This document shows, one piece after another, positions 280 to 38,993 of a stretch of DNA of 39,221 nt; the first letter of the stretch is position 1, and each line of letters starts with the position of its first letter. The DNA is taken from positions 53,929-93,149 of the forward strand of contig NZ_LR734855.1 of NCBI RefSeq assembly GCF_900010725.2, written 5' to 3'. The DNA is from Planktothrix serta PCC 8927 (GTDB taxonomy: Bacteria; Cyanobacteriota; Cyanobacteriia; Cyanobacteriales; Microcoleaceae). Below the pieces are notes generated by a model. It ran no database searches. It was not told the DNA's origin and was given only the letters and a program-made list of their open reading frames with translations. A program made the translations under genes and the position numbers.

Positions 280-3060
280 ATGTTTCAATTTTTTAAAGCC
301 TTTTTTGAAAATATCATGATTTTACCGGGATTTTCGCCATCCTGTTACCCGAATGCTGTTAGCAATATTCCCATACAACCGTATATTCTCGGTTCAGAAT
401 GGCTGATTATTGTAGCTCACTACAGTTTAGCATTGTTGCTGATTAACCGTCGGCAAACCCTCCCTGAACTACAGATATCCCAGAATTTACCGTCAACCTC
501 CGGGCTGAGTCGAGTCCTGAAACCCTTTTCCTTCAAGTCTTCAAACTGGCAACTCCCCTTGAAACTTTGGCCGGTTTTAGCATTCGGTTTAATCGCTGAT
601 GGCACCCTACATCTGATGCACCTGTTGAGGTGGAGGTATCCTCTCAATTTGGGTTTAGGCGTGGGTCAAGGAGTGATCACGTTCCTATTTTTACTCAGTG
701 TGGGGGGATTAATTCGGATGCTCACTCCCTCCTCCCCTGGGAGTTCCCCAGCGATACAATCCGTTACCCCTTTAATTTCTTGTGATCTTTGTCAACATAA
801 AATAGCCGCCTCTCAAAACTATTCCACATTAGATAAACTGCGATTAAATTTTTCAAATTTGTTTAAACTGGATGCTGCTTTTCCGTTTAAATTAGATCCT
901 ATGGAAGAAGTTTTAAAACTGACTAAATTTTCCATTGATAAAGCTGCCGATGCTATTTTTTGGGTCGGAGAAGATGGACATATTTTATATGTCAATGATG
1001 CGGCTTGTCGTTCTTTGGGGTATGGGCCAGAAGAATTATTAAATCTAACGATTCATGATATTAACCCGGATTTTCCTGAATCTTCTTGGTCATTACATTG
1101 GAAAATTTTAAGACGTTGCGGTTCTTTGAATATTGAAGCTCGGCATCGTACTAAACATAACCGGGTTTTTCCCGTTGAAATTACGATTAGTCATCTGAAT
1201 TTTAATGGTAAAGAATATCAATGTGCCTTTGCACGAGATATTAGCGATCGCAAACAAATTGAACGGACATTACGCGAACGTCAAGGAGAATTTCGTTCCT
1301 TAGTTTCTAATATTCCCGGTGCAGTTTATCGAGGGATTTTGGAACAGGATCGGCTGATGGTTTTTCTCAGTCAAGGAATTGAAGTTATTACCGGATATCC
1401 GGCCGCAGATTTTATTCAAAATCGAGTCCGATCCTTTAATAGTATTATTCATCCTGATGATATCGCTAAAGTCAAGGGAAAAATTCAGGTGAGTTTGGAA
1501 GCTCGACAGCCTTATATTTTAGAATACCGCTTAATTGCTGTGGATGGAACTATTCACTGGGTTTATGAAAAAGGACAAGTTATTTCGACCGAAGAAGGTT
1601 CAACTTGTTGGTTAAATGGGGCAATTTTTGATATTACAGAAAAGCGCCAAGCCTCGGAAGCCTTGAAAGCCAGTGAAGAACGATTAAAGTTAGCCTTAGC
1701 CGGAACTGATCAAGGATTATGGGATTGGAATTTAGTCACTGGAGAGGTTTATTTTAGTCCTCAATGGAGTTTGATGTTAGGGTATGAAACCAACCAAATT
1801 CAAGGGAAAGCTAGATCTTGGTTAAAGTTAGTTCATCCCGAAGATCGAGATCAAGTGGTTGAAGTTCTCAAACAACATTTAGAGGGAAAAACCCTGTTTT
1901 GTGAAATGGAACATCGAATGTTAAGCCGTTCGGGAGAATGGAAATGGATTCTGAATCATGGTAAAGTTGTGGTGCGGAATGAACATCAACAACCGATTCG
2001 GATGACGGGAACGGTTAAAGATATTAGCGATCGCAAACAAACAGAAGCCGCTTTACGTCAATCCGAAGCCAGAGAACGCGCTAAAGCGGAACAATTAGAA
2101 CTGACTTTAAGAGAATTAGGACAAGCTCAAGCTCAACTGATTCAAACCGAAAAATTATCCAGTTTAGGTCAATTAGTCGCCGGAATTGCCCATGAAATTA
2201 ATAACCCGATCACGTTTATTTATGGCAACATTACTTATGCCAGTCAATATATTCAAGACTTGTTGCAATTAATCGCCCTTTATCAACAGTATTATCCCCA
2301 ACCTGTGGCGGAAATTCAACATCATCAAGAAACCATTGAGTTAGATTTTATTCTCGATGATTTACCCAAAATTTTAGCCTCGATGGAAGTGGGAACTAAC
2401 CGAATTAGAGAAATTGTGCTGTCACTTCGTAATTTTTCCCGGTTGGATGAAGCCGATATGAAACCCGTTAATATTCATGATGGCTTGGACAATACTTTAT
2501 TGATTTTACAACATCGGCTTCGCCCCCAAGGAGGAAACCCCAGAGAAAAATGGAATCCTCCCATTCAAGTGATTAAAGAGTATGGTAACTTACCGAAAAC
2601 TGAATGTTATCCCGGTCAGTTGAATCAAGTTTTTATGAATGTGATCAGTAATGCCATTGATGCTTTATTAGAAGGAGAATCTAAGTTTATTCATCCTCCC
2701 CAATGCCTGAATTCTCCGGCTCCGGGATGGCATATTCCCTCCAGTTCTCCCACCATTCGGATTCACACAGAATTAAATGAAATCAACCGAGTTGTGATCC
2801 GAATTACTGACAATGGAAATGGCATGACAGAACGGGTAAAACACCGTTTATTTGAACCTTTTTTTACCACAAAACCTGTGGGAAAGGGAACAGGTTTAGG
2901 ATTAGCAATTAGTTATCAAATTATTGCCAAACATCAGGGGAAACTGCTCTGCTATTCTGAACCGGGAAAAGGAACAGAATTTGTCATCGAATTGCCTTTA
3001 AAGCAAGAGTTCAGACAAAATTCAAATTTACGCTTAGAAGTACAGTCCTCTACTGCTTGA
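280..3060 (+). CDS. Membrane PAS sensor histidine kinase with divergent ethylene-receptor-like N-terminus
   Basis: Three hydrophobic helices lie at about residues 38-56, 95-117 and 122-148, followed by a linker, three PAS/PAC units (about 215-330, 335-460, 465-590), a short coiled coil, a HisKA box with phospho-acceptor H638 (GIAHEINNP), and an HATPase domain with N-box (SNAIDALL, near 790), DNGNGM and GKGTGLGLAI. The membrane part resembles the ETR1/SynEtr1 sensor: a Pro/Cys-rich start (near residue 15-24), SEWLIIVAHYSL for the first helix and FGLIADGTLHLMHL for the second, but the copper-ligand Cys position is Asp107 while His111 is kept; about 35-45 extra residues separate helices 1 and 2. 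No receiver domain is present, so the response regulator is elsewhere. An AAAAAC/GTTTTT hairpin follows the stop. Kinase call is firm; ethylene-like ancestry is inference. Confidence 0.93.
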   Translation: MFQFFKAFFENIMILPGFSPSCYPNAVSNIPIQPYILGSEWLIIVAHYSLALLLINRRQTLPELQISQNLPSTSGLSRVLKPFSFKSSNWQLPLKLWPVLAFGLIADGTLHLMHLLRWRYPLNLGLGVGQGVITFLFLLSVGGLIRMLTPSSPGSSPAIQSVTPLISCDLCQHKIAASQNYSTLDKLRLNFSNLFKLDAAFPFKLDPMEEVLKLTKFSIDKAADAIFWVGEDGHILYVNDAACRSLGYGPEELLNLTIHDINPDFPESSWSLHWKILRRCGSLNIEARHRTKHNRVFPVEITISHLNFNGKEYQCAFARDISDRKQIERTLRERQGEFRSLVSNIPGAVYRGILEQDRLMVFLSQGIEVITGYPAADFIQNRVRSFNSIIHPDDIAKVKGKIQVSLEARQPYILEYRLIAVDGTIHWVYEKGQVISTEEGSTCWLNGAIFDITEKRQASEALKASEERLKLALAGTDQGLWDWNLVTGEVYFSPQWSLMLGYETNQIQGKARSWLKLVHPEDRDQVVEVLKQHLEGKTLFCEMEHRMLSRSGEWKWILNHGKVVVRNEHQQPIRMTGTVKDISDRKQTEAALRQSEARERAKAEQLELTLRELGQAQAQLIQTEKLSSLGQLVAGIAHEINNPITFIYGNITYASQYIQDLLQLIALYQQYYPQPVAEIQHHQETIELDFILDDLPKILASMEVGTNRIREIVLSLRNFSRLDEADMKPVNIHDGLDNTLLILQHRLRPQGGNPREKWNPPIQVIKEYGNLPKTECYPGQLNQVFMNVISNAIDALLEGESKFIHPPQCLNSPAPGWHIPSSSPTIRIHTELNEINRVVIRITDNGNGMTERVKHRLFEPFFTTKPVGKGTGLGLAISYQIIAKHQGKLLCYSEPGKGTEFVIELPLKQEFRQNSNLRLEVQSSTA

Positions 3061-15038: not shown

Positions 15039-16178
15039 TTAATGCCTTAAGCGTTTGCGAAAAGCTTGAGCTTCATTGCTATTCGGAATATTAGCTGCTA
15101 ATTTATCTACTAATTCTTCTGGGGTTAATTGAGGAAATTGCGTTAATATATCCTCAACAATAAAATTAGCAAATGGGCCGATAAATTCAGCTAATGCTTG
15201 CCGACATTGCTCTTGAAAAATACTAGAAATTATTGAATCTGAGGCTACCGTTTTAACAGAACTAATCCCCGGAATTGGAGGTGCTAGAATATTCGGAGGA
15301 TGGGCAATAGATTGACTCAAAGGGTCGAGAGCAACGGTGGACTGTTCAAACACATCTGTTAACTCCAATATTGCCACCAGAGCCTCCTGAGCGGTCGGGT
15401 AACGTTGGCGATAGTCATAACGCACCATTTTGTCTAAAATAGTAGCAAATGCTTCACTAATCGGCTTAGACATTGGTAACACACGACAGCAATATTCTCC
15501 CTGTAAATCTTGGGGAAATTGACGAGGAGATAAACCGCTTAAAGCTTGCATAGCAATGATGCCTACTGCAAAAATATCACTACTAAATTTAGGTTTAAAA
15601 GCTTGTTGTTCACTGGGCATATAATTCGGCGTTCCCACCGCAACAGTTAAGGTAGTTTCACCCGTTGAGTTAACAGAATAGAGACTGACTTCTTTGACCG
15701 CCCCAAAATCAATTAAAACAATTTTATTGTCTTGATGACGACGAATTAAATTAGCGGGTTTAATATCTCGATGAATGACCTGATTTTCATGAACAAATGC
15801 CAAAACGTGCAGAATTTCCTGTAAAAAAATGATCACTTCCCCCTCCGACCAAGCCCGACCTGATACAATTAATTCATTCAGAGGTTGACCTTCAATATAG
15901 TCCTGAACTAAATAAAATTCTTGATTTTGTTCAAAATGAGCCAGTAAACTAGGGATTTGTTCATGATGTCCTAAACGATGTAAAACTTCAGCTTCCTGAA
16001 TAAATAGACGTTTGGCAATTTGTTGGGTATTCGCATTTGTTGATGTCGGTTTGAGTTGTTTCACCACACACAAGGGGTCATGGGGTAAATGCAAGTCTTG
16101 AGCCAAAAATGTTTGACCAAAACCCCCACTTCCCAAGGGTTTAATCAGTCGATAACGATTTGCAAGTTGAGTGTCCAT
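15039..16178 (-). CDS. Serine/threonine protein kinase (Hanks type)
   Basis: 379 aa. The kinase domain fills residues 9-275 with all key residues: glycine loop LGSGGFGQT, K40 (VVKQLK), E62-64 region (IQEAEVLHRL), catalytic H-R-D138 (VIHRDIKPANL), D157-F-G, and the activation/APE-like segment GTPNYMPSEQQ. After a linker, a roughly 55-residue helical C-terminal module (CRQALAEFIGPFANFIVEDILTQF ... EEL) is present that I have seen on other cyanobacterial kinases but cannot name. No transmembrane helix, so cytosolic. It follows the FHA-cyclase gene by 41 bp on the same strand, so likely one operon. Confidence 0.95.
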   Translation of the reverse strand: MDTQLANRYRLIKPLGSGGFGQTFLAQDLHLPHDPLCVVKQLKPTSTNANTQQIAKRLFIQEAEVLHRLGHHEQIPSLLAHFEQNQEFYLVQDYIEGQPLNELIVSGRAWSEGEVIIFLQEILHVLAFVHENQVIHRDIKPANLIRRHQDNKIVLIDFGAVKEVSLYSVNSTGETTLTVAVGTPNYMPSEQQAFKPKFSSDIFAVGIIAMQALSGLSPRQFPQDLQGEYCCRVLPMSKPISEAFATILDKMVRYDYRQRYPTAQEALVAILELTDVFEQSTVALDPLSQSIAHPPNILAPPIPGISSVKTVASDSIISSIFQEQCRQALAEFIGPFANFIVEDILTQFPQLTPEELVDKLAANIPNSNEAQAFRKRLRH

Positions 16179-16219
16179 TGTTAAGCTGCTCCTGATCTAA
16201 ATGATTACATATTATTGAA

Positions 16220-17842
16220 TTAAAAAGATAGAGCAGTTGATTGAACTTCTTGCCAATGTATTCGATAAAGTTGTAGAGGTTCAACTTTACCTTTAACAGT
16301 AACGGGGGGAATTTTTTCTAAGGGAAGACTGTGATCTTTTAATTGATCAAAAGTGGATTGAGAAATTAAAATCTCATTTTTTTGGGCCGCAGAACAAATT
16401 CGACTCGCAACGTTCATCGTATCTCCAATATGGGTATATTGAATCAGTTTAGAAGAGCCAATATTTCCGGCTGCTACCTGTCCGGTATTCAGTCCAATAT
16501 GAATATAAATTGGTTCTCCATAACGCTGTTTCCATTGCTCATTCATCCGATGAACTGTCCATTGCATTTCAATGGCGGCTCGCACGGCTCGATCAACATC
16601 ATCATGACGGGAATAAGGTGCTCCCCAAACCGCAACTAAGGCATCCCCAATGTATTTTTCTAAGGTTCCTTCAAAGGGAAAAACAATTTCCTCTACCATG
16701 TGTTTAAAATATTCATTTAACATCGAAATAACTTGACGGGGCTGCATTCGAGAAGACATTTCCGTAAACCGAGTAATATCAGAAAATAGGGCGGTAACTT
16801 CACTTTCTACAATGCCTAATTTTCCTTCTTCTCGCAGTTTTCGACTCACCGCCGGGGGAAAAAATCGTTCTAATTTATTTCTAATTACGGCTTCTTCCTG
16901 CATTTTTTTATACAGTTCTGCATTATCAATGGCGATCGCAGCTTGATTCGCTAAAGCCGTTAAAAATTCTACATCTTCGGGAGAATAAAGATTAGATAAA
17001 GATAAATTATCCACATATAAAACCCCGATCACACTATCTCGTAACTTCAACGGCGCACACATTGAGGCATGAATAGCTTGACACAAAATCGACTCGGAAC
17101 CTTCAAACCGTTCATCCGCTTGAGCATCGGCGATTAATACAGCATTCCCCGTTTCTCGAACGGTATTCGTAATTTTTTTACTATAAAAATTTTCATCGGC
17201 GAGGGGTTCTTCTCGAAATTTAACGGCTTTTTGTTCTAAATTATTAGTTTTAGGATTAATCAACAAAATCGCCGCCCGATCCAGATTCATGATTTGAAAT
17301 AATAGATCTAAAATTTTATCGAGGAGTTTATTAAGTTCATGGGGAGAAGATAACTCTTTGCTGACTTCTAATAAAATTTTTAACTTATCAACAACCCGTA
17401 AATGGGCATCTTGTTGGCGAATATTTAAAACAGAAGTTCCCGCTTGGGAAGGTTCTAATAAATCTTGAATAATTGTATAACCCGCATCCGTTGCAAATTC
17501 TTGAATCACAGAAGTTTGAGAATTGTCGCTATCAGGTTTATAGGAGGAGGTAAGTGAAACATTCATAAACTTAAATACCACACGACCACAACGAACTAAA
17601 TCCCCAGATTTTAGGTTGGAGTGTTCAATCATCACCTCATTCACAAAGGTATGATTACTACTTTGCATATCTGTAATCGTGCTTTTTCCCTCGTTTACCT
17701 CAATCCGAGCATGATGACGAGACAAACTCACATCCGCCAAACAAATCGTATTATCCCGTCCCCGTCCGATGGTATTCGCACCGAACTGTAAGTTAAACGT
17801 CATTGAACTGGTCGTATCGGGGTTATAAATTAAATATGGCAC
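16220..17842 (-). CDS. FHA-GAF adenylate cyclase (class IIIb)
   Basis: 540 aa, soluble. FHA domain at 1-93 with the phosphothreonine-binding pattern IGRGRDN, SLSRHHA and SNHTFVN; GAF domain about 165-310; a helical linker; cyclase domain about 345-530. Catalytic residues are present: metal-binding D355 (FSDITRFT) and D400 (EKYIGD), K396 and T470 for the base (Thr marks class IIIb), and N477/R481 for the transition state. It should make cAMP from ATP. Start is GTG 17842 with GAGAGGAA just upstream; the next ATG would cut into FHA. The Ser/Thr kinase gene lies 41 bp downstream, so the kinase may create the FHA ligand. Confidence 0.93.
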   Translation of the reverse strand: MPYLIYNPDTTSSMTFNLQFGANTIGRGRDNTICLADVSLSRHHARIEVNEGKSTITDMQSSNHTFVNEVMIEHSNLKSGDLVRCGRVVFKFMNVSLTSSYKPDSDNSQTSVIQEFATDAGYTIIQDLLEPSQAGTSVLNIRQQDAHLRVVDKLKILLEVSKELSSPHELNKLLDKILDLLFQIMNLDRAAILLINPKTNNLEQKAVKFREEPLADENFYSKKITNTVRETGNAVLIADAQADERFEGSESILCQAIHASMCAPLKLRDSVIGVLYVDNLSLSNLYSPEDVEFLTALANQAAIAIDNAELYKKMQEEAVIRNKLERFFPPAVSRKLREEGKLGIVESEVTALFSDITRFTEMSSRMQPRQVISMLNEYFKHMVEEIVFPFEGTLEKYIGDALVAVWGAPYSRHDDVDRAVRAAIEMQWTVHRMNEQWKQRYGEPIYIHIGLNTGQVAAGNIGSSKLIQYTHIGDTMNVASRICSAAQKNEILISQSTFDQLKDHSLPLEKIPPVTVKGKVEPLQLYRIHWQEVQSTALSF

Positions 17843-20146: not shown

Positions 20147-23100
20147 ATGGATCTCAACTCTTTCCTTCGTTCTCTATTAATCAGTCAAACCTGGGGCAAA
20201 ATTCCCTTACGATTTGTATTGATTATTCCCTTTGTGATCCAAATTACAGCCACCGTATTAATTGTCGGTTATTTATCCTTTCGCAGTGGACAACGTGCGG
20301 TTGAAAAAATGAGTAGCGAATTGATGAATGAAGTCACTCAGCGTGTTGAAGATCACATTGATCAAGTCACAGAAACCGCCAAAGTGATTACAAATCATAC
20401 TCTGGATCAGTGGGAGATTGACAATACTGATTTAAGCGAATTATTACCCCTGGAAGAACATCTATTTTTAACCTTACGACATTTTAAATTAATTAATAGA
20501 ATCTTAATCGGAAATGAACAGCATGATTTTTTAGGAGTCACTCGTTTGAATGGACAGCGAGCTTGGTATTCTAGTCCCCAGGATTCATCACTAATTTATG
20601 ATTATGCGATTGATCAAAAGGGAAAACCGATTAAACTTTTAGGAACCTTTTGGAAACCGAGTGTCACCCTTCGTCCTTGGTATCAAGATGCTGTGAAAAA
20701 TCGAAAAACAAGCTGGGGTTCTCTATATCCATTAGGAAGTAATGAAGATTTAGGATTAAGTCTGAATACTCCGATTTATGATCGCCAAAGCCAGAAATTA
20801 TTAGGGGTGTTGTCCGTCGGAATTATCTCCTCTAATCTCAGTGATTTCCTCAGTCAAATTCGAGTCGGAAAATCGGGAAAAGTTATTATAATTGATAGAA
20901 ATGGCAATTTAGTTGCTAGTTCTCAAGGTCAAATCTATCAGAAATATAAAGGAAAATTAAAATTTATTAATCTTGTAGAAAGTCAAGATCAATTATATCA
21001 GAATATTGGGAATTTTTTAATCAAAAATTTTGGTGAATTTCCTAATGTTCAAAAGATTCAAAATGTTAATTTTACGATTCCACCGACAACCTGGGGAAGT
21101 TTATCAAACCATTATTTTTTACAAGTCGCTCCCTTAAAAAATCAAGAGGGTTTAGATTTACTGATGATTGTTGTTATTCCTCAAAGCGATTTTATGACGG
21201 AAGTAAATGCTCAGTTTAAACAAACTTTGTTTCTTTGTATTGGTGTTTTCTTCTTAGCGACAGGTGTAGGAATCTTAATCAGTCGTTGGATCATTAAACC
21301 AATTTTAGCCGTTAATCAAGCTGCGAAACAGATCGCAACTGGAGAAATTAAACACCTTACCGACTTTGAAAGAACCGATGAAATTGGGGAATTGGTTCAA
21401 TCCTTTAAAGGAATGACCAATCAATTACAAACCAGCCTAGAAAACCTTCAAAAAGAAATTATTAAACACCAAGAAACCGAAGCCAAACTACGTCACGCTC
21501 AACGAATTTCTAAACTGAGTGTTTGGGAATTTCATTGTTTGAATAAAACTCTAATTTGGAGTCCAGAAATTTATCAGATTTATGGTTTTAATTTCCTGGG
21601 TAAACTGTCAAATATTCGACAATTATTACCCTATATTTATCCCGATGATCATCCGATCTATTTTCAAGAGGTTATTGACCCATTACGGGCGAAGAAACCC
21701 TTTGCTACAGAATTAAGAATTTTGCGGGCTGATGGCTCTATTCGCTATACTGAAGTTCAGGGAGAACCGATTTTTGATCAACAAGGAAACACAATTCGAT
21801 TAGTAGGAACTATCAGAGATATTACAGAACGTAAACAAGCAGAAATCACCTTAAAAAATCAAGAACAATTATTACGCAGTATTTATGAGGGCGTCGAAGA
21901 ACCCATTTTTGTCGTAGATGTGGGAGAAAATGGAGAGTTTCGATATGCGGGAACAAATTCCGCCCATGAAAAAATTACGGGTTTATCTCGCAAAAAAATC
22001 TTAGGAAAAACCCCGGAAGAATTAAAATTTCCCGCCTGGAAACAGGTGATTCAACATTATCAAGATTGTGTGAATACCGGAACTTCTATCTGTTATGAAG
22101 AATGGGTAGTTTTGAATGGGGTAGAAACATTTTGGTATACAACTCTAACCCCGTTAAAAGATTTAGAATCTCGCATTTATCGAATTGTAGGAACAACAGT
22201 AGAAACCAGTTATATTAAACAAACCGAGCGATCGCTACAAACCGCTTTACTACAAATTCAAAAACATTTTGAATATTCTCCCTTAGCGATTATAGAATGG
22301 GATTCTCAAGGTAAAATCAAACGCTGGTCAAAACAAGCTGAAAATATTTTTGGATGGAAAGCCGAAGAAGTCATCGGTTTATCTAATCATGATTTTTTGA
22401 TGATTTACGAAGCCGACCAAGAGCGAGTTAATCAGGGAATTATGGAGATGTTAACCCGTCAAAGTAATACCTTAAAAATGCAAAACCGGAATTATACGAA
22501 AAACCATGATCTGATTAGTTGTGAATGGTTTTCATCGGCGATCTTTGATCAGCAGGGTAATCTAACTTCAGCTTTATCTTTTGTTCAGGATATCACGGAT
22601 CGTCAACAATCTGAACAAGCATTACGTCAAAGTGAAGCCAGATGGCGGCATTTAATTGAAGCTAATATTGTTGGGATTATTTTTGCTGATTTTGAAGGCA
22701 AAATTTTAGCAGCCAATGATGCCTTTTTACGGATGATTGGCTATAGTCGAGAGGAGTTAGAAAATGGAGTATTACGCTGGGATACTATTACTCCCCCGGA
22801 TGGTAAAGCCGCTGATCAAGAACGGGTGCGAAAAATTTTAAGGGATAAGATTTTACCCCCGAATGAAAAAGAATATTTGCATAAAGATGGAACCCGAATT
22901 CCGGTTATTTTAGGAGCAACTTTATTAGAAGAACAAAAGCAGTGCGTTGCTTTTGTGTTAAATATTACCCAACAAAAACAAACCGAAATCGAACTGCAAA
23001 AAGCTAAGGAACAAGCGGAAGCCGCCAACCGCGCCAAAAGTACCTTTTTAAGCAATATGAGTCATGAGCTTCGCACCCCTTTAAATGCAATTTTAGGGTT

Positions 23101-24466
23101 TACGCAACTGATGGTGAGAGATTCTACCTTAGCCCCTCATCATCGAGAAAAATTACAAATTATTAACCGCAATGGAGCTTATTTATTACAGCTAATTAAT
23201 GATATTTTATCCATTTCTAAAATAGAAGCAAATCGAGTTATTTTTGAAGAAAAAACCTTTGATTTATATCAATTATTAGAAGATTTAGAGGATACCTTTG
23301 AACTGAGAGCAGCTTCCAAAGGTTTAGAATTAATTATTGAGCGATCGCCGAATTTACCCCAATATTTAAAGACCGATGAACGCAAATTGCGTCAAGTTTT
23401 GATCAATTTATTAGATAATGGGATTAAATTCACCGATCATGGCAGTGTCACCCTGCGAATTACGCTTTTAGAACAGAGCTTAAACCCCGGTTCTGCTCCT
23501 CCTGACTACACCATCGAGTTTGAAGTTGAAGATACGGGTGCCGGGGTAGCACCTGAAGAACTAGACACCATGTTTGATGCTTTCGTACAAACCAGCAGTG
23601 GACGACACTCGCAACAGGGAACTGGGTTAGGGTTACCCATTAGTCGCCGCTTTGTGGAACTGATGGGGGGTCAGATCCAAGTCAGCAGTCAAATAGGTAG
23701 AGGAACTCAGTTTCAATTTACCATCCAGGCTTTAGGGGTTGACCCTGCAACCGTAGCTTCACCCGAACCCCAATACCGGGTAATTGGACTGGCCCCCCAT
23801 CAACCTTTATACCGAATTTTAGTCGTCGATGATTTAGAAATGAACCGTCAATGGTTCGTTAAGTTGTTGCGTTCTGTGGGGTTTGAGGTTGAGGAAGCTG
23901 AAAATGGGGAAATGGCTTTGAATTTGGTAGAATCTTATGACCCCCATCTGATTTGGATGGATATGCGAATGTCAGGTATTGATGGCTATCGTGCAACTCA
24001 AGAAATTAGAGCCAAAAAAGCGCAGACTCTTTTATCGATGCCTCCTGATTTTGAACCTTTTCCCAAAATTATTGCGGTTTCTGCTAGTGTATTTGAAGAG
24101 GAACGCCAAAAAATTATCGCCGCAGGCTGTGATGATTTTGTTGGTAAACCTTTGACAGAAGCCAGGATTTGGGAAATATTGAAGAAACATTTAGGAGTAA
24201 AATATAGAGTTGAAGACTTTATACCTAATCAAGTTAGACATCACCAGATTCAGGATGCAACCATTATTCAAGCGTTGGCGACTCTACCTCCCGAATTGTT
24301 AAATCAGTTAGCAATAGAAACTCAAATAGGGGATTCTGAAAAACTGCTCAGTTTACTTACACAAATTCCTTCTTCTCAAAGGGTTTTAATTAACACGTTA
24401 ACGGAATTAATCAATAACTTTGAATTTGAAGTCATTCTTAACTGGGTTACAAACACTCTGATATGA
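20147..24466 (+). CDS. Hybrid sensor histidine kinase (dCache-HAMP-PASx4-HisKA-HATPase-REC)
   Basis: 1439 aa. First membrane helix at about 22-45, a long extracytoplasmic Cache region (about 50-355, with RPWYQDAVKNRKTSWGSLY and SVGIISSNLS typical of dCache), second helix 357-380, HAMP about 381-433, four PAS/PAC units (about 453-557, 575-686, 702-815, 832-940), HisKA with H973 (MSHELRTPLNAIL), HATPase (about 1075-1200: NLLDNGIKFTD, DTGAGV, GTGLGLPISR), and REC with D1272 (LIWMDMRMSGIDGY). After REC an 80-residue helical tail lacks a phospho-transfer His. The stop overlaps the next gene start (ATGA), so translation is coupled to a REC-kinase. Ligand unknown. Confidence 0.95.
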   Translation: MDLNSFLRSLLISQTWGKIPLRFVLIIPFVIQITATVLIVGYLSFRSGQRAVEKMSSELMNEVTQRVEDHIDQVTETAKVITNHTLDQWEIDNTDLSELLPLEEHLFLTLRHFKLINRILIGNEQHDFLGVTRLNGQRAWYSSPQDSSLIYDYAIDQKGKPIKLLGTFWKPSVTLRPWYQDAVKNRKTSWGSLYPLGSNEDLGLSLNTPIYDRQSQKLLGVLSVGIISSNLSDFLSQIRVGKSGKVIIIDRNGNLVASSQGQIYQKYKGKLKFINLVESQDQLYQNIGNFLIKNFGEFPNVQKIQNVNFTIPPTTWGSLSNHYFLQVAPLKNQEGLDLLMIVVIPQSDFMTEVNAQFKQTLFLCIGVFFLATGVGILISRWIIKPILAVNQAAKQIATGEIKHLTDFERTDEIGELVQSFKGMTNQLQTSLENLQKEIIKHQETEAKLRHAQRISKLSVWEFHCLNKTLIWSPEIYQIYGFNFLGKLSNIRQLLPYIYPDDHPIYFQEVIDPLRAKKPFATELRILRADGSIRYTEVQGEPIFDQQGNTIRLVGTIRDITERKQAEITLKNQEQLLRSIYEGVEEPIFVVDVGENGEFRYAGTNSAHEKITGLSRKKILGKTPEELKFPAWKQVIQHYQDCVNTGTSICYEEWVVLNGVETFWYTTLTPLKDLESRIYRIVGTTVETSYIKQTERSLQTALLQIQKHFEYSPLAIIEWDSQGKIKRWSKQAENIFGWKAEEVIGLSNHDFLMIYEADQERVNQGIMEMLTRQSNTLKMQNRNYTKNHDLISCEWFSSAIFDQQGNLTSALSFVQDITDRQQSEQALRQSEARWRHLIEANIVGIIFADFEGKILAANDAFLRMIGYSREELENGVLRWDTITPPDGKAADQERVRKILRDKILPPNEKEYLHKDGTRIPVILGATLLEEQKQCVAFVLNITQQKQTEIELQKAKEQAEAANRAKSTFLSNMSHELRTPLNAILGFTQLMVRDSTLAPHHREKLQIINRNGAYLLQLINDILSISKIEANRVIFEEKTFDLYQLLEDLEDTFELRAASKGLELIIERSPNLPQYLKTDERKLRQVLINLLDNGIKFTDHGSVTLRITLLEQSLNPGSAPPDYTIEFEVEDTGAGVAPEELDTMFDAFVQTSSGRHSQQGTGLGLPISRRFVELMGGQIQVSSQIGRGTQFQFTIQALGVDPATVASPEPQYRVIGLAPHQPLYRILVVDDLEMNRQWFVKLLRSVGFEVEEAENGEMALNLVESYDPHLIWMDMRMSGIDGYRATQEIRAKKAQTLLSMPPDFEPFPKIIAVSASVFEEERQKIIAAGCDDFVGKPLTEARIWEILKKHLGVKYRVEDFIPNQVRHHQIQDATIIQALATLPPELLNQLAIETQIGDSEKLLSLLTQIPSSQRVLINTLTELINNFEFEVILNWVTNTLI

Positions 24467-25785
24467 ATTCTAACTCAACGAACTCTCCTCTAGCAGATAT
24501 TTTAATTGTTGATGATATTCCTGATAACTTGCGGGTTTTATCTCAAGTTTTATTAGAACAGGGTTATCGGGTTCGCAAAGCAACCAATGGGCAATTTGCC
24601 TTAAATTCCGCCCAATTGATGCCTCCTGATTTAATTTTATTAGATGTGATGATGCCAGAGTTAGATGGCTATGATGCCTGTCGTTTTCTCAAGGCAGATG
24701 AACGCACACGCGATATTCCGATTATTTTTATTACCGCTAGGGATGATATTCAAAGTAAACTTATGGGGTTTGAAGTCGGAGGATTAGATTATATTACTAA
24801 ACCCTTTGATGTTGAAGAAGTTGTCGTGCGCGTTTCTACTCAACTTAAAATTAGTCGCTTGCAAAAAGAACTGCAATTGCAAAAAAATCAGTTAGAGCAA
24901 AAAAATCAACAACTGGAACAGGAAGTTAGCGATCGCATTGCTGCCCAAACACAACTCCAAATTTTAAATCAAGAGTTAGAAACTAAAGTTGAACAACGCA
25001 CCCAAGAACTGAAACAGAGAAATCAAGAATTAGTCAGCTTACAAAAACAGTTAGAAATTTCTTTGAAAAAAGAACAGTCCTTAAGCGAAATGAAATCTCG
25101 GCTAATTACCACAATTTCCCATGAATTTCGCACCCCTTTGACGGTGATTATGACTTCTAATGAATTAATTAAATATAAAATTGAACAACAAAAAACCGAA
25201 AATTTAGATCGTCATATTAACCGAGTTAATGAAAGTGTTAAACGGATTGAACAGATTTTAAATAGTGCGATTGTTTTAGCCCAAGCTGAATCTAATTTAA
25301 TTCATTTTGAACCGCAATCTTTGAATTTAGACTTATTTATTAAAAGCCTATTAGAAGATTGGAAATCTCTCGAAATTCAGGATCATAAAATTCAATTAAA
25401 GGTTGAAGGCAATCATCCACAGCAGTTTAAAGCCGATCCGAACTTCCTCAAACAAATTATCATTAATTTACTCACAAATGCGATTCGTTATTCTCCAGAA
25501 GGAGGAACAATTGTGGTTGAAATGATTTATCAACCCACTCAAGTTGTGTTCAAAATTCAAGATCAAGGCATTGGAATTCCTGAATCTGAACTAGACCAAG
25601 TATTAGAACCCTTCTATCGTGCTAGTAATGCTGATTCTATATCAGGAACCCCAGGGGCTGGATTAGGATTAACCGTTGTCAAACGTCTGGTAGAACTCCA
25701 TCAAGGAACCCTCACCCTCCACAGCATCCTCAACCAAGGAACAACCGTTACCCTTTCTTTTCCGGTTCAAGAGGTTGACGGTTAA
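24463..25785 (+). CDS. Response regulator-histidine kinase (REC-coiled coil-HisKA-HATPase)
   Basis: 440 aa, no membrane helix. REC domain 12-130 with phospho-acceptor D61 (LILLDVMMPELDGY) and the conserved T/K (FITARDD, KPFDVEE). A Gln/Glu-rich coiled coil (about 130-205) joins it to HisKA with H220 (TISHEFRTPLTVIM) and an HATPase with NLLTNAIRYSPEGG, DQGIGI and GAGLGLTVVKRL. ATGA overlap with the upstream hybrid kinase means co-expression; the likely flow is from that kinase's REC or HisKA into this REC, a phosphorelay or an opposing phosphatase. The final target is not in the window. Confidence 0.94.
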   Translation: MNSNSTNSPLADILIVDDIPDNLRVLSQVLLEQGYRVRKATNGQFALNSAQLMPPDLILLDVMMPELDGYDACRFLKADERTRDIPIIFITARDDIQSKLMGFEVGGLDYITKPFDVEEVVVRVSTQLKISRLQKELQLQKNQLEQKNQQLEQEVSDRIAAQTQLQILNQELETKVEQRTQELKQRNQELVSLQKQLEISLKKEQSLSEMKSRLITTISHEFRTPLTVIMTSNELIKYKIEQQKTENLDRHINRVNESVKRIEQILNSAIVLAQAESNLIHFEPQSLNLDLFIKSLLEDWKSLEIQDHKIQLKVEGNHPQQFKADPNFLKQIIINLLTNAIRYSPEGGTIVVEMIYQPTQVVFKIQDQGIGIPESELDQVLEPFYRASNADSISGTPGAGLGLTVVKRLVELHQGTLTLHSILNQGTTVTLSFPVQEVDG

Positions 25786-34614: not shown

Positions 34615-35161
34615 AATCGCACAATATTTAGGGGTAGATCACCAGAGCTTCAAAAAATTTTAAGCAAAAACTTGCACAGAAGATGTCATGCTATATGATA
34701 GTCGATAAACTTAAATATTTCTTAATTCGTATCAAAATATACTAAAATGGATCAGATTTTTTGGACTGGGCAAAGCCCCCCGAACTGGGTTCCCCGAAAT
34801 TTTCCGGTGGAATCAAGGACAGGTGTGGTGAAAGCCGAGTCCCTCGGTTGTCCCTGTTAAAAGCCGATTTCCCTTCTCCTCCAATCCCAGGACTCTCTCC
34901 CCAGGTCAGCCAACAGAGGAGTCCGAGATTGAGTTGTTTCTGTCTTCACTCGCTGTAGGTCAGAAATAGCCCTATTGGACACCGAAAGAGGACAGGGCGA
35001 CCGGGTGACTTCACCCAGTACAAATTCATGCAAACAGATCTGTACTGATTGTAGCGAGATCCAATCACCCCTAGCCCTTGGACAACTGTTTATAACAAGC
35101 CCTAGGTGGTGGGACACAAGCCCCTAATCTTGAACTTATTCTCATGACTAGGAGATACACT
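34615..35161. other. Long structured region before cphB
   Basis: About 547 bp with higher GC than its surroundings from 34760 on. Stems visible: GCCGAG (34834-34839)/CTCGGT (34843-34848), GGACTC-TCT (34890-34898)/AGA-G-GAGTCC (34915-34924), GGGTG/CACCC (35003-35016), and CAGTACA (35016-35022)/TGTACTG (35041-35047). No tRNA, SRP, RNase P or tmRNA signature found. Best reading: the cphB 5' leader or a separate small RNA. Confidence 0.45.
34672..34699 (+). promoter_or_regulatory. Possible sigma70-type promoter for cphB leader
   Basis: TTGCAC (34672-34677) and TATGAT (34694-34699) are spaced by 16 nt and point to a transcription start near 34706, which would give a leader of about 455 nt. A TATACT near 34738 is an alternative -10. 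No NtcA site (GTA-N8-TAC) was found. Confidence 0.4.
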
Positions 35162-36016
35162 ATGCAGCAGTTGACATCTCAAGCCCTTGAACAAATGATT
35201 CCCCAACAAACTAAAACCTCGATTCTCATTATTGGTGGAGCAGAAGACAAAGTTCATGGACGTGAGATTCTGCAAACTTTTTTTCACCGGGCTGGCGCTT
35301 CCACTGCCAACCTTGCCATCATTCCCTCCGCCTCCCGTGAACCTGCCATTCAAGGAGAGAGATATCAAAAAATCTTTGGGGAAATGGGGGCAAAATCCAT
35401 TGAAGTCTTTGATATTCGGGAACGCCATCATTGTGAAGATCCCAAATGGCACGCCTACTTGGAAACCTGTACTGGGGTATTCCTGACGGGGGGAGATCAA
35501 TTGCGACTTTACAGTCTGTTGGCGGATACCCTACTGATGGAAAAAATTCGGATCGCAGCCCGCCAAGGACGACTGGCTTTAGCGGGAACCAGTGCGGGAG
35601 CAGCCGTTATGGGCCATCACATGATTGCTGGGGGAGGCAGTGGGGAATCTCCAAACCGTTCCCTGGTGGATATGGCAACGGGCCTAGATATTCTCCCGGA
35701 GTTGGTGGTTGATCAACACTTTAATAACCGTAATCGCATGGCAAGACTGGTGAGTGCGATCGCAGCCCATCCCGATAAAATTGGGATTGGGATTGATGAA
35801 GATACCTGTGCCTTATTTGAAGCGGAAGGTTTATTGCGGGTCGTGGGAAAAGGAACCGTTACCATTGTAGATACCCAGGAAATGTCTTACACCAATTTGG
35901 TGAATGTCGGCGCGACTGATCCCTTAAGTGTATTCAATCTGCGAGTCCATATTTTGTCTTATGGCGATCAATATAACCTGCATTCGCGTCGTCCGAGTTC
36001 TGCCCCCAGTGTGTAA
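35162..36016 (+). CDS. cphB: Cyanophycinase
   Basis: Serine-type exopeptidase that cuts cyanophycin to beta-Asp-Arg dipeptides in the cytosol. 284 aa from ATG 35162, which has AGGAGA 6 nt upstream; an ATG at 35144 lacks one. Motifs: ILIIGGAEDKVHGREIL, IIPSASREP, GVFLTGGDQLRLYSLL, nucleophile S144 in LALAGTSAGAAVM, and VDQHFNNRNRMARL with GIGIDEDTCALF. Length close to characterised enzymes (about 270-290 aa). Paired with cphA 271 bp downstream: degradation and synthesis of the same polymer. A long leader and a structured spacer separate the genes from their neighbours. Confidence 0.97.
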   Translation: MQQLTSQALEQMIPQQTKTSILIIGGAEDKVHGREILQTFFHRAGASTANLAIIPSASREPAIQGERYQKIFGEMGAKSIEVFDIRERHHCEDPKWHAYLETCTGVFLTGGDQLRLYSLLADTLLMEKIRIAARQGRLALAGTSAGAAVMGHHMIAGGGSGESPNRSLVDMATGLDILPELVVDQHFNNRNRMARLVSAIAAHPDKIGIGIDEDTCALFEAEGLLRVVGKGTVTIVDTQEMSYTNLVNVGATDPLSVFNLRVHILSYGDQYNLHSRRPSSAPSV

Positions 36017-36051
36017 ACCGCAGATCACCCGATTTTGACCTCGGAGGTTGT

Positions 36052-36110
36052 CAAGGTTTTCCCCTGAAGTCTCTGGAGACTGGATAGTGCCGACACTTCC
36101 AGAAACCTTG
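36052..36110 (+). promoter_or_regulatory. Two-level hairpin between cphB and cphA
   Basis: CAAGGTTT (36052-36059) pairs with AAACCTTG (36103-36110) and encloses AGTCTC (36068-36073)/GAGACT (36076-36081). It lies 35 bp after the cphB stop. No T run follows, so a processing or stability element is more likely than a simple terminator. Confidence 0.45.
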
Positions 36111-36146
36111 CACCCAACAAAACAGATGATCAGATTCACTGCTTAC

Positions 36147-36175
36147 TGTTCCCTGTTAAGCTGTTCCCTGTTCCC
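36147..36175. repeat. STRR heptamers (TGTTCCC)
   Basis: Three TGTTCCC and one TGTTAAG heptamers lie in the cphB-cphA spacer, with one extra C breaking the phase after the second unit. Confidence 0.8.
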
Positions 36176-36199
36176 TTGATAATGAAAAAACTGTTCATG

Positions 36200-36212
36200 G
36201 TAAACAGTTTAC
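36200..36212. promoter_or_regulatory. GTAAAC-A-GTTTAC palindrome upstream of cphA
   Basis: A perfect 13-bp palindrome sits 76 bp before the cphA ATG. It is one base short of the NtcA consensus GTA-N8-TAC (here N7), so it may be a site of another dimeric regulator. A possible -10 (TTGAAT or TAGCTT) follows within 10-25 nt. Confidence 0.4.
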
Positions 36213-36287
36213 AAGTCACCTTAGCTTGAAATTGAATAAAGCGGACTATCGCCCTGGAACATTCCTGCATCACGGACTCACACGGAT

Positions 36288-38993
36288 ATGAAAATTCTTA
36301 AAATACAAACCTTAAGAGGCCCTAACTACTGGAGCATCCGACGTCATCAACTGATTGTGATGCGTTTGGATTTAGAAGAATTAACTGAACGCTATAGCAG
36401 CGATATTCCAGGCTTCTATAAAGGCTTAACGTCTGTTCTCCCTAGCCTAATTGAACACCACTGTTCACCAGGAGTCCGAGGAGGGTTCCTCAGTCGGGTA
36501 GAACGGGGAACGTTAATGGGACATATTATCGAACACGTTGCCCTGGAACTCCAACAGTTAGCCGGAATGCCTGTCGCCTTTGGTCGCACCCGTGAAACAT
36601 CGACTTCAGGGATTTTTCAGGTGGCGTTTGAGTATGACAACGAACACGCCGGACGTTATGCAGGAAGGGCGGCCGTCCGACTCTGCCAAAGTATTGTGCA
36701 GACAGGAACCTATCCCACGGAAGAACTCACCCAAGATCTTGAAGATCTCAAAGAATTAAAAGCTCAAGCCTCCCTTGGCCCTAGCACAGAAACTATTATT
36801 AAAGAAGCCGAAGCCCGTGAAATTCCCTGGCAACAACTGAATGCTCGGTTTATGATTCAGTTTGGCTATGGTTGTTATCAAAAACGGATTCAAGCCACTC
36901 TGAGCAACCAAACCGGAGTGTTAGCGGTGGAACTAGCCTGTGATAAAGAAGGGACAAAACAAATTCTCCGCGATGCAGGGGTTCCGGTTCCTAGGGGGAC
37001 AGTAATTCGCTATTTTGATGAACTCCAAGATGCTATTGATGAAGTGGGGGGCTATCCCATTGCCATTAAGCCCCTGGATGGCAATCATGGCCGGGGAATT
37101 ACCCTAGATATTACTAAATGGGAAACGGCCGCTACAGCCTACGAGGAAGCCAGTAACGCTTCTAAAACCCGCAGTGTGATTTTGGAACGCTTCTATAAAG
37201 GTCGAGATCATCGGGTATTAGTGGTTAATGGAAAAATGGTCGCTGTCGCGGAACGGGTGCCCGCCCATATCATCGGGGATGGTCAGTTAACCATTGAACA
37301 ATTAATCGAAAAAACTAACCGAGATCCCCGTCGGGGAGATGGTCATGATAATGTCCTCACCCGGATAGTGGTGGATAAAACGGTGCTGTCCATGATTGCC
37401 GAAAAAGGCTGTACCCTAGAAAGCGTATTGCCCCCAGGAGAAATCTGTTTTCTTCGAGCTACGGCTAATCTGAGTACCGGAGGGAGTGCTATTGACCGCA
37501 CCGATGAAGTTCACCCGGATAATGTTTGGCTGTTTGCTCGAATTGCTAAAATTATTGGTTTGGATATTGCCGGAATTGATGTGGTGACACCGGATATTTC
37601 CCAGCCTCTGCGGGAAGTTGATGGGGTGATTGTGGAAGTTAACGCCGCACCGGGTTTCCGAATGCACGTCGCCCCCAGTGAAGGTTTACCCCGGAATGTG
37701 GCGGGGGCGGTGATGGATATGTTATTCCCCCCTGGTCAACCGAGTCGCGTCCCGATTTTAGCGGTGACTGGGACGAATGGGAAAACGACAACTACCCGTT
37801 TGTTAGCTCACATCATCAAACAAACGGGGTTAGCGGTGGGTTATACCACTACCGACGGGATTTATATTGGCGATCATTTAGCTGAACCTGGGGATAATAC
37901 CGGGCCTCAAAGCGCTCAACTGATTCTGCGTGATCCGATGGTAGAAGTCGCTGTGCTTGAATGTGCGCGGGGGGGAATTCTGCGGGCTGGGTTAGGGTTC
38001 GATACCTGTGATGTCGGTGTGGTGTTGAATGTTTCGGCCGATCATTTGGGGTTGGGGGATATTGATACCCCGGAACAAATGGCGAAGGTGAAAAGTGTTG
38101 TGGCTGAGGTGGTGATGCCCAAAGGCTATGCGGTGTTGAACGCTGATGATCCGTTAGTGGTACAAATGGCCGAACGGGTGAAAGCCCAGATCGCCTATTT
38201 TACGATGAATCCTGAGAATGAAATTGTGTTGAAACACACTGAATCTGGGGGGTTAGCGGCGGTTTATGAAAACGGCTATCTGTCGATATTAAAAGGAGAT
38301 TGGACGTTACGGATTGAACAGGCGGTGAATGTTCCGATCACGATGAATGGTCGCGCTCCGTTTATGATTGCCAATGCTTTAGCGGCTTGTTTAGCCGCCT
38401 TTGCCCAAGGGGTGAAAATAGAGCATATTCGGGCGGGTTTGTCAACCTTTATCGCCTCGACTTCCCAAACCCCCGGACGGATGAATTTATTTAATATGGG
38501 CGACTATCACGCTCTGATTGATTATGCCCACAACCCGGCAAGTTATGTGGCATTAGGAGCTTTTGTGAAAAATTGGCCAGGGCCTCGGATTGGGGTTATT
38601 GGTGGCCCCGGCGATCGCCGAGATGAGGATTTTGTCACCTTGGGTCAACTGGCGGCTGATATTTTTGATCAGATTATTGTCAAGGAGGATGATGATACTC
38701 GGGGTCGAGAACGGGGTTCGGCGGCTGAGTTAATTAGCAAAGGGGTTGAGCAAATTTTGGCGGGAGTTCCTGATCCTAGTATTCGCTATGAAACGATTCT
38801 CAATGAAACTGAAGCGATTAATACGGCTTTAGATCAAGCTTCTTCGGGATCGTTAGTGGTGATTTTACCTGAAAGTGTGAATCGAGCTATTCAATTAATT
38901 GAGTCGCGTAACCCTATCCAGGAGTCTAATAACAACTCTCATCCTCCGAGTCTAAATTCCTCAACAGCGAGCTTAAAACCGTCTCAAGTTTAA
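36288..38993 (+). CDS. cphA: Cyanophycin synthetase
   Basis: Non-ribosomal ATP-dependent enzyme that builds multi-L-arginyl-poly-L-aspartate, adding Asp to the backbone and Arg to side chains. 901 aa: N-terminal domain (about 1-160, IEHVALELQQLAGM), ATP-grasp (about 210-480, with GYPIAIKPLDGNHGRGI and VEVNAAPGFRMH), and Mur-ligase domain from about 490 with the P-loop TGTNGKTTTT at 494-503, DNTGPQSAQL, LECARGGILRAGLG, and DYAHNPASY. All three are complete. The last about 25 residues (Asn/Ser-rich) are a disordered tail. Own promoter probable. A strong GC-rich hairpin with T5 (39014-39075) ends the unit. Confidence 0.98.
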   Translation: MKILKIQTLRGPNYWSIRRHQLIVMRLDLEELTERYSSDIPGFYKGLTSVLPSLIEHHCSPGVRGGFLSRVERGTLMGHIIEHVALELQQLAGMPVAFGRTRETSTSGIFQVAFEYDNEHAGRYAGRAAVRLCQSIVQTGTYPTEELTQDLEDLKELKAQASLGPSTETIIKEAEAREIPWQQLNARFMIQFGYGCYQKRIQATLSNQTGVLAVELACDKEGTKQILRDAGVPVPRGTVIRYFDELQDAIDEVGGYPIAIKPLDGNHGRGITLDITKWETAATAYEEASNASKTRSVILERFYKGRDHRVLVVNGKMVAVAERVPAHIIGDGQLTIEQLIEKTNRDPRRGDGHDNVLTRIVVDKTVLSMIAEKGCTLESVLPPGEICFLRATANLSTGGSAIDRTDEVHPDNVWLFARIAKIIGLDIAGIDVVTPDISQPLREVDGVIVEVNAAPGFRMHVAPSEGLPRNVAGAVMDMLFPPGQPSRVPILAVTGTNGKTTTTRLLAHIIKQTGLAVGYTTTDGIYIGDHLAEPGDNTGPQSAQLILRDPMVEVAVLECARGGILRAGLGFDTCDVGVVLNVSADHLGLGDIDTPEQMAKVKSVVAEVVMPKGYAVLNADDPLVVQMAERVKAQIAYFTMNPENEIVLKHTESGGLAAVYENGYLSILKGDWTLRIEQAVNVPITMNGRAPFMIANALAACLAAFAQGVKIEHIRAGLSTFIASTSQTPGRMNLFNMGDYHALIDYAHNPASYVALGAFVKNWPGPRIGVIGGPGDRRDEDFVTLGQLAADIFDQIIVKEDDDTRGRERGSAAELISKGVEQILAGVPDPSIRYETILNETEAINTALDQASSGSLVVILPESVNRAIQLIESRNPIQESNNNSHPPSLNSSTASLKPSQV

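Follow-up and report, generated by a model that had tools for sequence, protein, structure and literature searches.

A diverged ethylene-receptor-type sensor histidine kinase of Planktothrix serta in which the copper site has probably been lost

The window analysed here (39,221 nucleotides of Planktothrix serta PCC 8927, contig NZ_LR734855.1) carries near its start a gene for a sensor histidine kinase whose membrane domain appears, with good support from sequence comparison, to be a strongly diverged ethylene-binding domain. In the reading preferred here, to which a probability of about 0.7 is assigned, the ancestor would have been an ordinary cyanobacterial sensor kinase with an ethylene-binding domain. 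In the Planktothrix lineage, its Cu(I) site would have been destroyed by substitutions of ligand and pocket residues, along with an insertion of 20-27 residues in the loop between helices 1 and 2. The three helices would be maintained by purifying selection, most likely as a membrane anchor and as a dimerisation and transmission bundle, and an intact histidine kinase would now receive its input from the cytoplasmic PAS domains. In ancestry the protein is an ethylene-receptor-type kinase, and judged from its residues it should not be an ethylene receptor.

The open frame extends from 280 to 3060 on the plus strand, on which all of its parts described below lie, and encodes 926 residues. The preliminary description had placed the sensor in 280-780; this span does hold the sensor part, but the gene itself measures 2.8 kb and the sensor is a portion of it. 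Both M1 (280) and M13 (316) are possible starts. In the orthologs from genomes G004 and G007, an in-frame TAA is located upstream of the start equivalent to M13 (L079:6010-6024 and L081:6010-6012), in a stretch which is still alignable with its translation ended, and the G005 copy has two TAA codons as well. The membrane domain (residues 1-150, 280-729) is followed by a PAS region of three PAS stretches (residues about 219-579, 934-2016; three stretches each for Pfam PAS_3 and PAS_9) and by the histidine kinase core (2164-3003), in which Pfam places HisKA from residue 629 and HATPase_c at residues 780-908. The two features by which a sensor histidine kinase is recognised, the HisKA phospho-acceptor His and the HATPase_c G boxes, are both found: H638 sits in AHEINNP, and the boxes DNGNGM and GTGLGL are present.

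The three N-terminal helices proposed earlier were confirmed by three hydrophobic segments (about residues 37-52, 97-111 and 129-144) and by AlphaFold2, which, together with the profile alignment, places helix 1 at residues 33-60 (376-459), helix 2 at residues 91-119 (550-636) and helix 3 at residues 124-148 (649-723). The model was obtained from a six-row alignment with a mean pLDDT of 47 and a pTM of 0.29, values at which the helix packing is not confident. Relative to canonical domains, 27 residues are inserted between helices 1 and 2 (460-540, ends approximate), since E40 and D107 are 67 residues apart and the corresponding distance in canonical domains is 40; the 35-45 residues estimated previously were too many. 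Half of the eight Planktothrix orthologs have a shorter insertion of 20 residues. One spacing value (g3_G011) was taken as a false regular-expression match and ignored.

In Pfam, the relationship of this domain to ethylene-binding domains shows only below the cut-off. The 174-residue N-terminal piece scored 13.5 bits (E 0.09) against ETR1_N (PF25487), below the cut-off of 27 bits, with residues 96-148 matched to model positions 40-91, and ETR1_N was not listed when the whole 926-residue protein was the query. Of the remaining seven Planktothrix orthologs, five (G008, G005, G004, G007 and G002) matched the same part of the model with 14.8-20.5 bits (E 0.0025-0.17); the genus-wide six-frame ETR1_N search that gave these matches (E up to 10) did not list the copies in G003, G006 and the window genome. 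The homology of the window protein's N-terminus therefore rests on profiles and orthology. When a profile of eight Planktothrix sequences was compared by hhalign with 29 cyanobacterial domains (of 30 loci), which were chosen by a motif demanding intact Cys and His and are thus intact by construction, a score of 29.4 (P 2.6e-4) was obtained over all three helices. The controls remained lower: 50 full column shuffles reached at most 19.8 and 200 shuffles within hydrophobic or loop blocks at most 22.2, and the reversed profile scored 14.9. The same profile was also compared with orthologs from g9 and g11, which, together with g10, are the genera of the same family as Planktothrix into which the PAS-region orthologs fall. 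The three g9 orthologs were matched over three helices in the same register (Prob 87, E 4e-6), and the g11 orthologs over helices 2-3 only (score 21.2, E 0.011; shuffle maximum 16.4, n=60), the g11 profile having been built from 11 of the 18 rows. The profile search against the sensor family that had been suggested as a check thus gave a divided answer, below the cut-off in Pfam and positive as profile-profile similarity over the three helices. In the hhalign alignment, E40 (397-399) stands at Asp25 of ETR1, D107 (598-600) at Cys65, H111 (610-612) at His69 and Q130 (667-669) at Lys91. With H47 (418-420) at Tyr32 and A51 at Pro36, the register given in the preliminary description was reproduced independently by profile comparison.

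It might instead be supposed that an unrelated three-helix domain without kinship to ethylene-binding domains has replaced the N-terminus. The score under the Pfam cut-off would agree with such a replacement, as would the low identity of the N-domain to those of five of its seven Planktothrix orthologs, 44-55% compared with 86-91% in the kinase, and the unrecognisable N-terminus of the g10 orthologs. However, the three-helix match to the g9 orthologs, the score against intact domains that none of the 250 shuffles reached, and the common model region matched by five other orthologs make it very unlikely. A search of solved structures with an intact domain as query returned no relative, the sole match up to E 1 being a light-harvesting peptide (E 0.42). 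The best non-orthologous matches in the genus by whole-protein score are PAS kinases for which no ethylene domain was listed.

Orthology and gene order connect the gene with kinases that have an intact domain. The window-type N-domain was found in eight of ten Planktothrix genomes (E 3e-29 or better) and, with 12 candidates scored per genome, in 6 of the 291 genomes of the order, all of them Planktothrix. Orthologs of the PAS region were detected at E <= 1e-70 in 23 of the 291 genomes, 22 of which belong to the same family (six candidates scored per genome); the kinase part served to recover G302, G023 and another five g11 copies. The g9 orthologs L188 and L189 (genomes G017 and G022) are colinear with the window protein, with 54% identity over 909 aligned positions, and differ from it in retaining Cys65, His69, Asp25, Tyr32, Pro36 and Lys91. 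In a tree from which most of the membrane domain had been left out, 30 orthologs (7 from Planktothrix, 2 from g10, 3 from g9 and 18 from g11) form one clade with support 99/91, which splits into Planktothrix with g10 and g9 with g11. For this tree a fixed 150 or 170 first residues were removed from each ORF, and because the ORFs of G002 and G003 have 40 additional upstream codons, the last part of helix 3 remained in the alignment for these two; the G005 copy, whose contig breaks off, stands outside it. The kinase-only tree (82 rows) recovered Planktothrix with g10 (96) and g9 with g11 (97) and did not join the two pairs, which both lie inside a 41-row fork (support 81) with the ethylene-domain paralogs of the genus and two kinases lacking such a domain; it was the longer alignment that joined them.

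Moreover, a leucyl aminopeptidase gene is located upstream in 13 of the 15 copies examined. It lies directly upstream in ten of them, namely in five Planktothrix (the window genome G000, G002, G003, G004 and G007), both g10 and three g11 copies (the latter two groups being G018, G023, G024, G271 and G287), and farther away, at 2.6-5.2 kb, in three (G008, with two ORFs between, and G017 and G022, the distance in g9 being about 5 kb). The surroundings of the gene in G006 and G302 yielded no aminopeptidase. The sample of 15 copies was drawn from a larger set, with the remaining 15 g11 copies and G005 outside it, and the aminopeptidase, named from the copy of the window genome, was recognised outside that genome and eight others by its first 45 residues only. 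In G008 alone, the ORFs between aminopeptidase and kinase (L012:2612-4509) are of 418 and 140 residues, and the former resembles by eye an IS200/IS605-type transposase. Its orthology to canonical members and the shared gene order assign the N-terminus to ETR1_N by descent, and kinship with the ETR1/SynEtr1 sensor, as first proposed, is upheld by profile homology, by orthology to intact-domain kinases and by gene order. In G001 and G009, the next gene after the aminopeptidase, at a distance of ~70 bp, is the 570-residue kinase that comes after the gene in G008, G004 and G007, and the absence of the gene from both genomes is most simply explained by deletion. Candidate remnants in the two genomes were rejected. 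The tblastn matches fell in the neighbouring 570-residue kinase or, with E values from 0.14 upwards, were no better than chance, and blastn yielded a single match of 24 bases (E 0.57).

The copper site is formed by Asp25, Cys65 and His69, as stated in an excerpt of PMC12643061. According to a section of PMC11819568, ETR1 no longer binds ethylene once C65 or D25 is mutated, the same being true of the comparable Cys in SynEtr1, and the model described there has D25 positioning H69 and forming a bond to K91. In the window protein, positions 25, 32, 36, 65 and 91 are changed (E40, H47, A51, D107 and Q130) and position 69 is kept (H111), so the residue set of a functional receptor, the Cys65/His69 pair with Asp25, Tyr32, Pro36 and Lys91, is not present. 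Across the Planktothrix orthologs the pocket changes are Asp25 to Glu, Tyr32 to His or Gln, Pro36 to Ala or Gly, Lys91 to Gln, and Cys65 to Asp or Asn. The sole Cys of residues 1-150, Cys22 (343-345), is kept in all eight and is located near the position of the single N-terminal Cys described for cyanobacterial ethylene-binding domains in part of PMC6682694. The loss of the copper and ethylene site suggested in the preliminary description is thus well supported by the Cys content, the intact-domain orthologs, the profile homology and the gene order, and with its Cu(I) site gone, the Planktothrix protein should bind neither Cu(I) nor ethylene. That the helices retain weak copper or ethylene binding through other residues, for which H47, H111 and H114 in helices 1 and 2 might be considered, is extremely unlikely, since no Cys other than C22 is available, a Cys is required in ETR1 and SynEtr1 (section of PMC11819568), and Asp25, Tyr32, Pro36, Cys65 and Lys91 are all altered.

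The preliminary description had further suggested that the Asp/His combination senses another ligand or metal. In its fuller form, the domain would be a neofunctionalised sensor in which the E40-H47-D107-H111 cluster holds another metal or a small ligand and still gates the kinase. The former pocket positions are indeed taken by four polar residues, with E40 and Q130 identical in all eight orthologs, H111 is found in seven and H47 in six, and the domain is under purifying selection. The complete Glu/His/Asp/His set, however, occurs in only three of the eight: the Cys65 position is Asp in three and Asn in five, and the His69 position is His in seven and Asp in one, so that the conservation of D107 proposed as a check does not hold, and the inter-helix insertion likewise measures either 27 or 20 residues. 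Other residues are present at these positions in the g9 and g11 orthologs, where C, G, W or D stands at the Cys65 position and the His69 position has H, Q, K or E. A metal-binding Asp/His pair was rejected as the main reading because of this variation, and a neofunctionalised sensor is considered unlikely. A broader proposal, in which cyanobacterial ethylene-receptor domains repeatedly become copper-free sensors and the window lineage has a kinase-coupled Glu-His-Asp-His site for another metal or for protons, appears rather improbable; such a rebuilt site is possible in three of the eight orthologs and is not conserved over all of them.

Loss of the copper ligands, which counts in favour of the preferred reading of descent with loss, extends beyond Planktothrix. 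Only 2 of the 28 tree orthologs with a recognisable domain, L188 and L189, retain Cys65 together with His69. In G302, Cys65 is replaced by Gly and His69 is retained; in the 18 g11 copies the Cys65 position is Cys in 11, Trp in six and Asp in one, and the His69 position is never His (Gln in ten, Lys in seven, Glu in one). The ETR1_N score declines along the clade from 142.8 bits in the near-canonical domain of L188 to 100 in G302, 59.9-69 in the four of 18 g11 copies scanned and 13.5 in the window protein. The two g10 N-termini gave no Pfam ETR1_N match and profile scores below the shuffle maxima, and here replacement instead of erosion is possible. At least five changes are required on a 40-row tree with paralogs included, in which states were assigned by group and the two g10 rows were scored as lost; the count carries no direction, and the choice of the intact state as the ancestral one follows from its being the norm of the family. 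Site loss has apparently occurred more than once within the same gene of related bacteria, with the kinase retained. Among the titles and abstract openings retrieved from open-licence literature, none dealt with copper-ligand loss in cyanobacterial domains, which is weak evidence of absence.

The membrane domain is under purifying selection, with dN/dS above that of the kinase. In 21 Planktothrix pairs, dN/dS was 0.21-0.52 for the N-domain versus 0.05-0.13 for the kinase; the values were 0.19-0.33 for intact paralogous domains (10 pairs) and 0.31-0.52 for pairs involving paralogs with a His-to-Pro change (11 pairs). In four close pairs (G002-G003, G008-G004, G008-G007 and G004-G007), the N-domain showed no higher dN than the intact paralogous domain did. 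When the G002/G003 line was compared with the G008/G004/G007 line, the dN of the N-domain was 3.1-4.4 times that of the intact paralog (0.56-0.60 versus 0.13-0.18), although dS was also high there (1.1-1.7) and alignment error or saturation may contribute to the dN. Rapid change in a burst, with constraint thereafter, fits this pattern better than free decay does. As the dN/dS range shows a domain that is still constrained, the bundle likely persists as a membrane anchor and as a dimer and transmission bundle; purifying selection would fit a new ligand as well.

As in SynEtr1, GeiEtr1/2, AzoEtr1 and plant ETR1, three N-terminal membrane helices precede a cytoplasmic sensor kinase in the window protein, which also shares with these ETR1_N kinases the register of the binding site and the N-terminal Cys. 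It is unlike them in its five replaced pocket residues, in the insertion of 20-27 residues and in its Pfam score below the cut-off. Other Planktothrix kinases with an ethylene-binding domain have likewise lost a copper ligand, but these degenerate paralogs occupy other loci and score above the Pfam cut-off. In L117 (G000:C57, the window genome) and L124 (G006:C174), Pro stands in place of His69 and Cys in place of Tyr32, and in paralogs of G001 and G005, Cys65 is replaced by Phe. A separate kinase of 1357-1360 residues with an ETR1_N-like domain (L138, L139 and L140 in G000:C30, G002:C1 and G003:C26) has Asn at both ligand positions. Two alignment rows, par_G006 and par_G001, were in wrong reading frames and entered no count. 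Both ligands are kept in 11 of the 18 full over-cut-off domains of Planktothrix, a census of 19 rows from which the partial L068 was dropped and which does not include the eight window-type domains. In the background they are kept in 21 of 25 over-cut-off domains (27 rows, with L257 and L258 dropped as below the cut-off), from 14 genomes of 14 other families, hand-chosen among those with a match and mostly with few matches. The census thus warns that an ETR1_N match alone does not make an ethylene receptor.

The orthologs of this one gene form a natural series, from the intact site of two g9 genomes through the partial loss in G302 and g11 to the fully altered pocket of Planktothrix and the absence of the gene from G001 and G009, with the kinase conserved wherever the gene is present. 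This makes the role of an ethylene-receptor bundle unable to bind ethylene directly testable. Beside the g9 ortholog, a second ethylene-domain kinase is located (L229:3766-5760 in G017 and L228:6266-8569 in G022), with a seemingly near-canonical N-terminus in G022; in G017, recognition of this domain was limited to the helix-3 part.

Elsewhere in the window, an FHA-GAF-adenylate/guanylate cyclase gene adjoins that of a Ser/Thr protein kinase (15039-17842). Two adjacent two-component genes with a 4-base overlap (20147-25785) encode a 1439-residue dCache-HAMP-PAS hybrid kinase and a 440-residue response-regulator/kinase protein. At 35144-38993, a gene of the Peptidase S51 family, which includes cyanophycinases, is followed by one for a cyanophycin-synthetase-like ligase.
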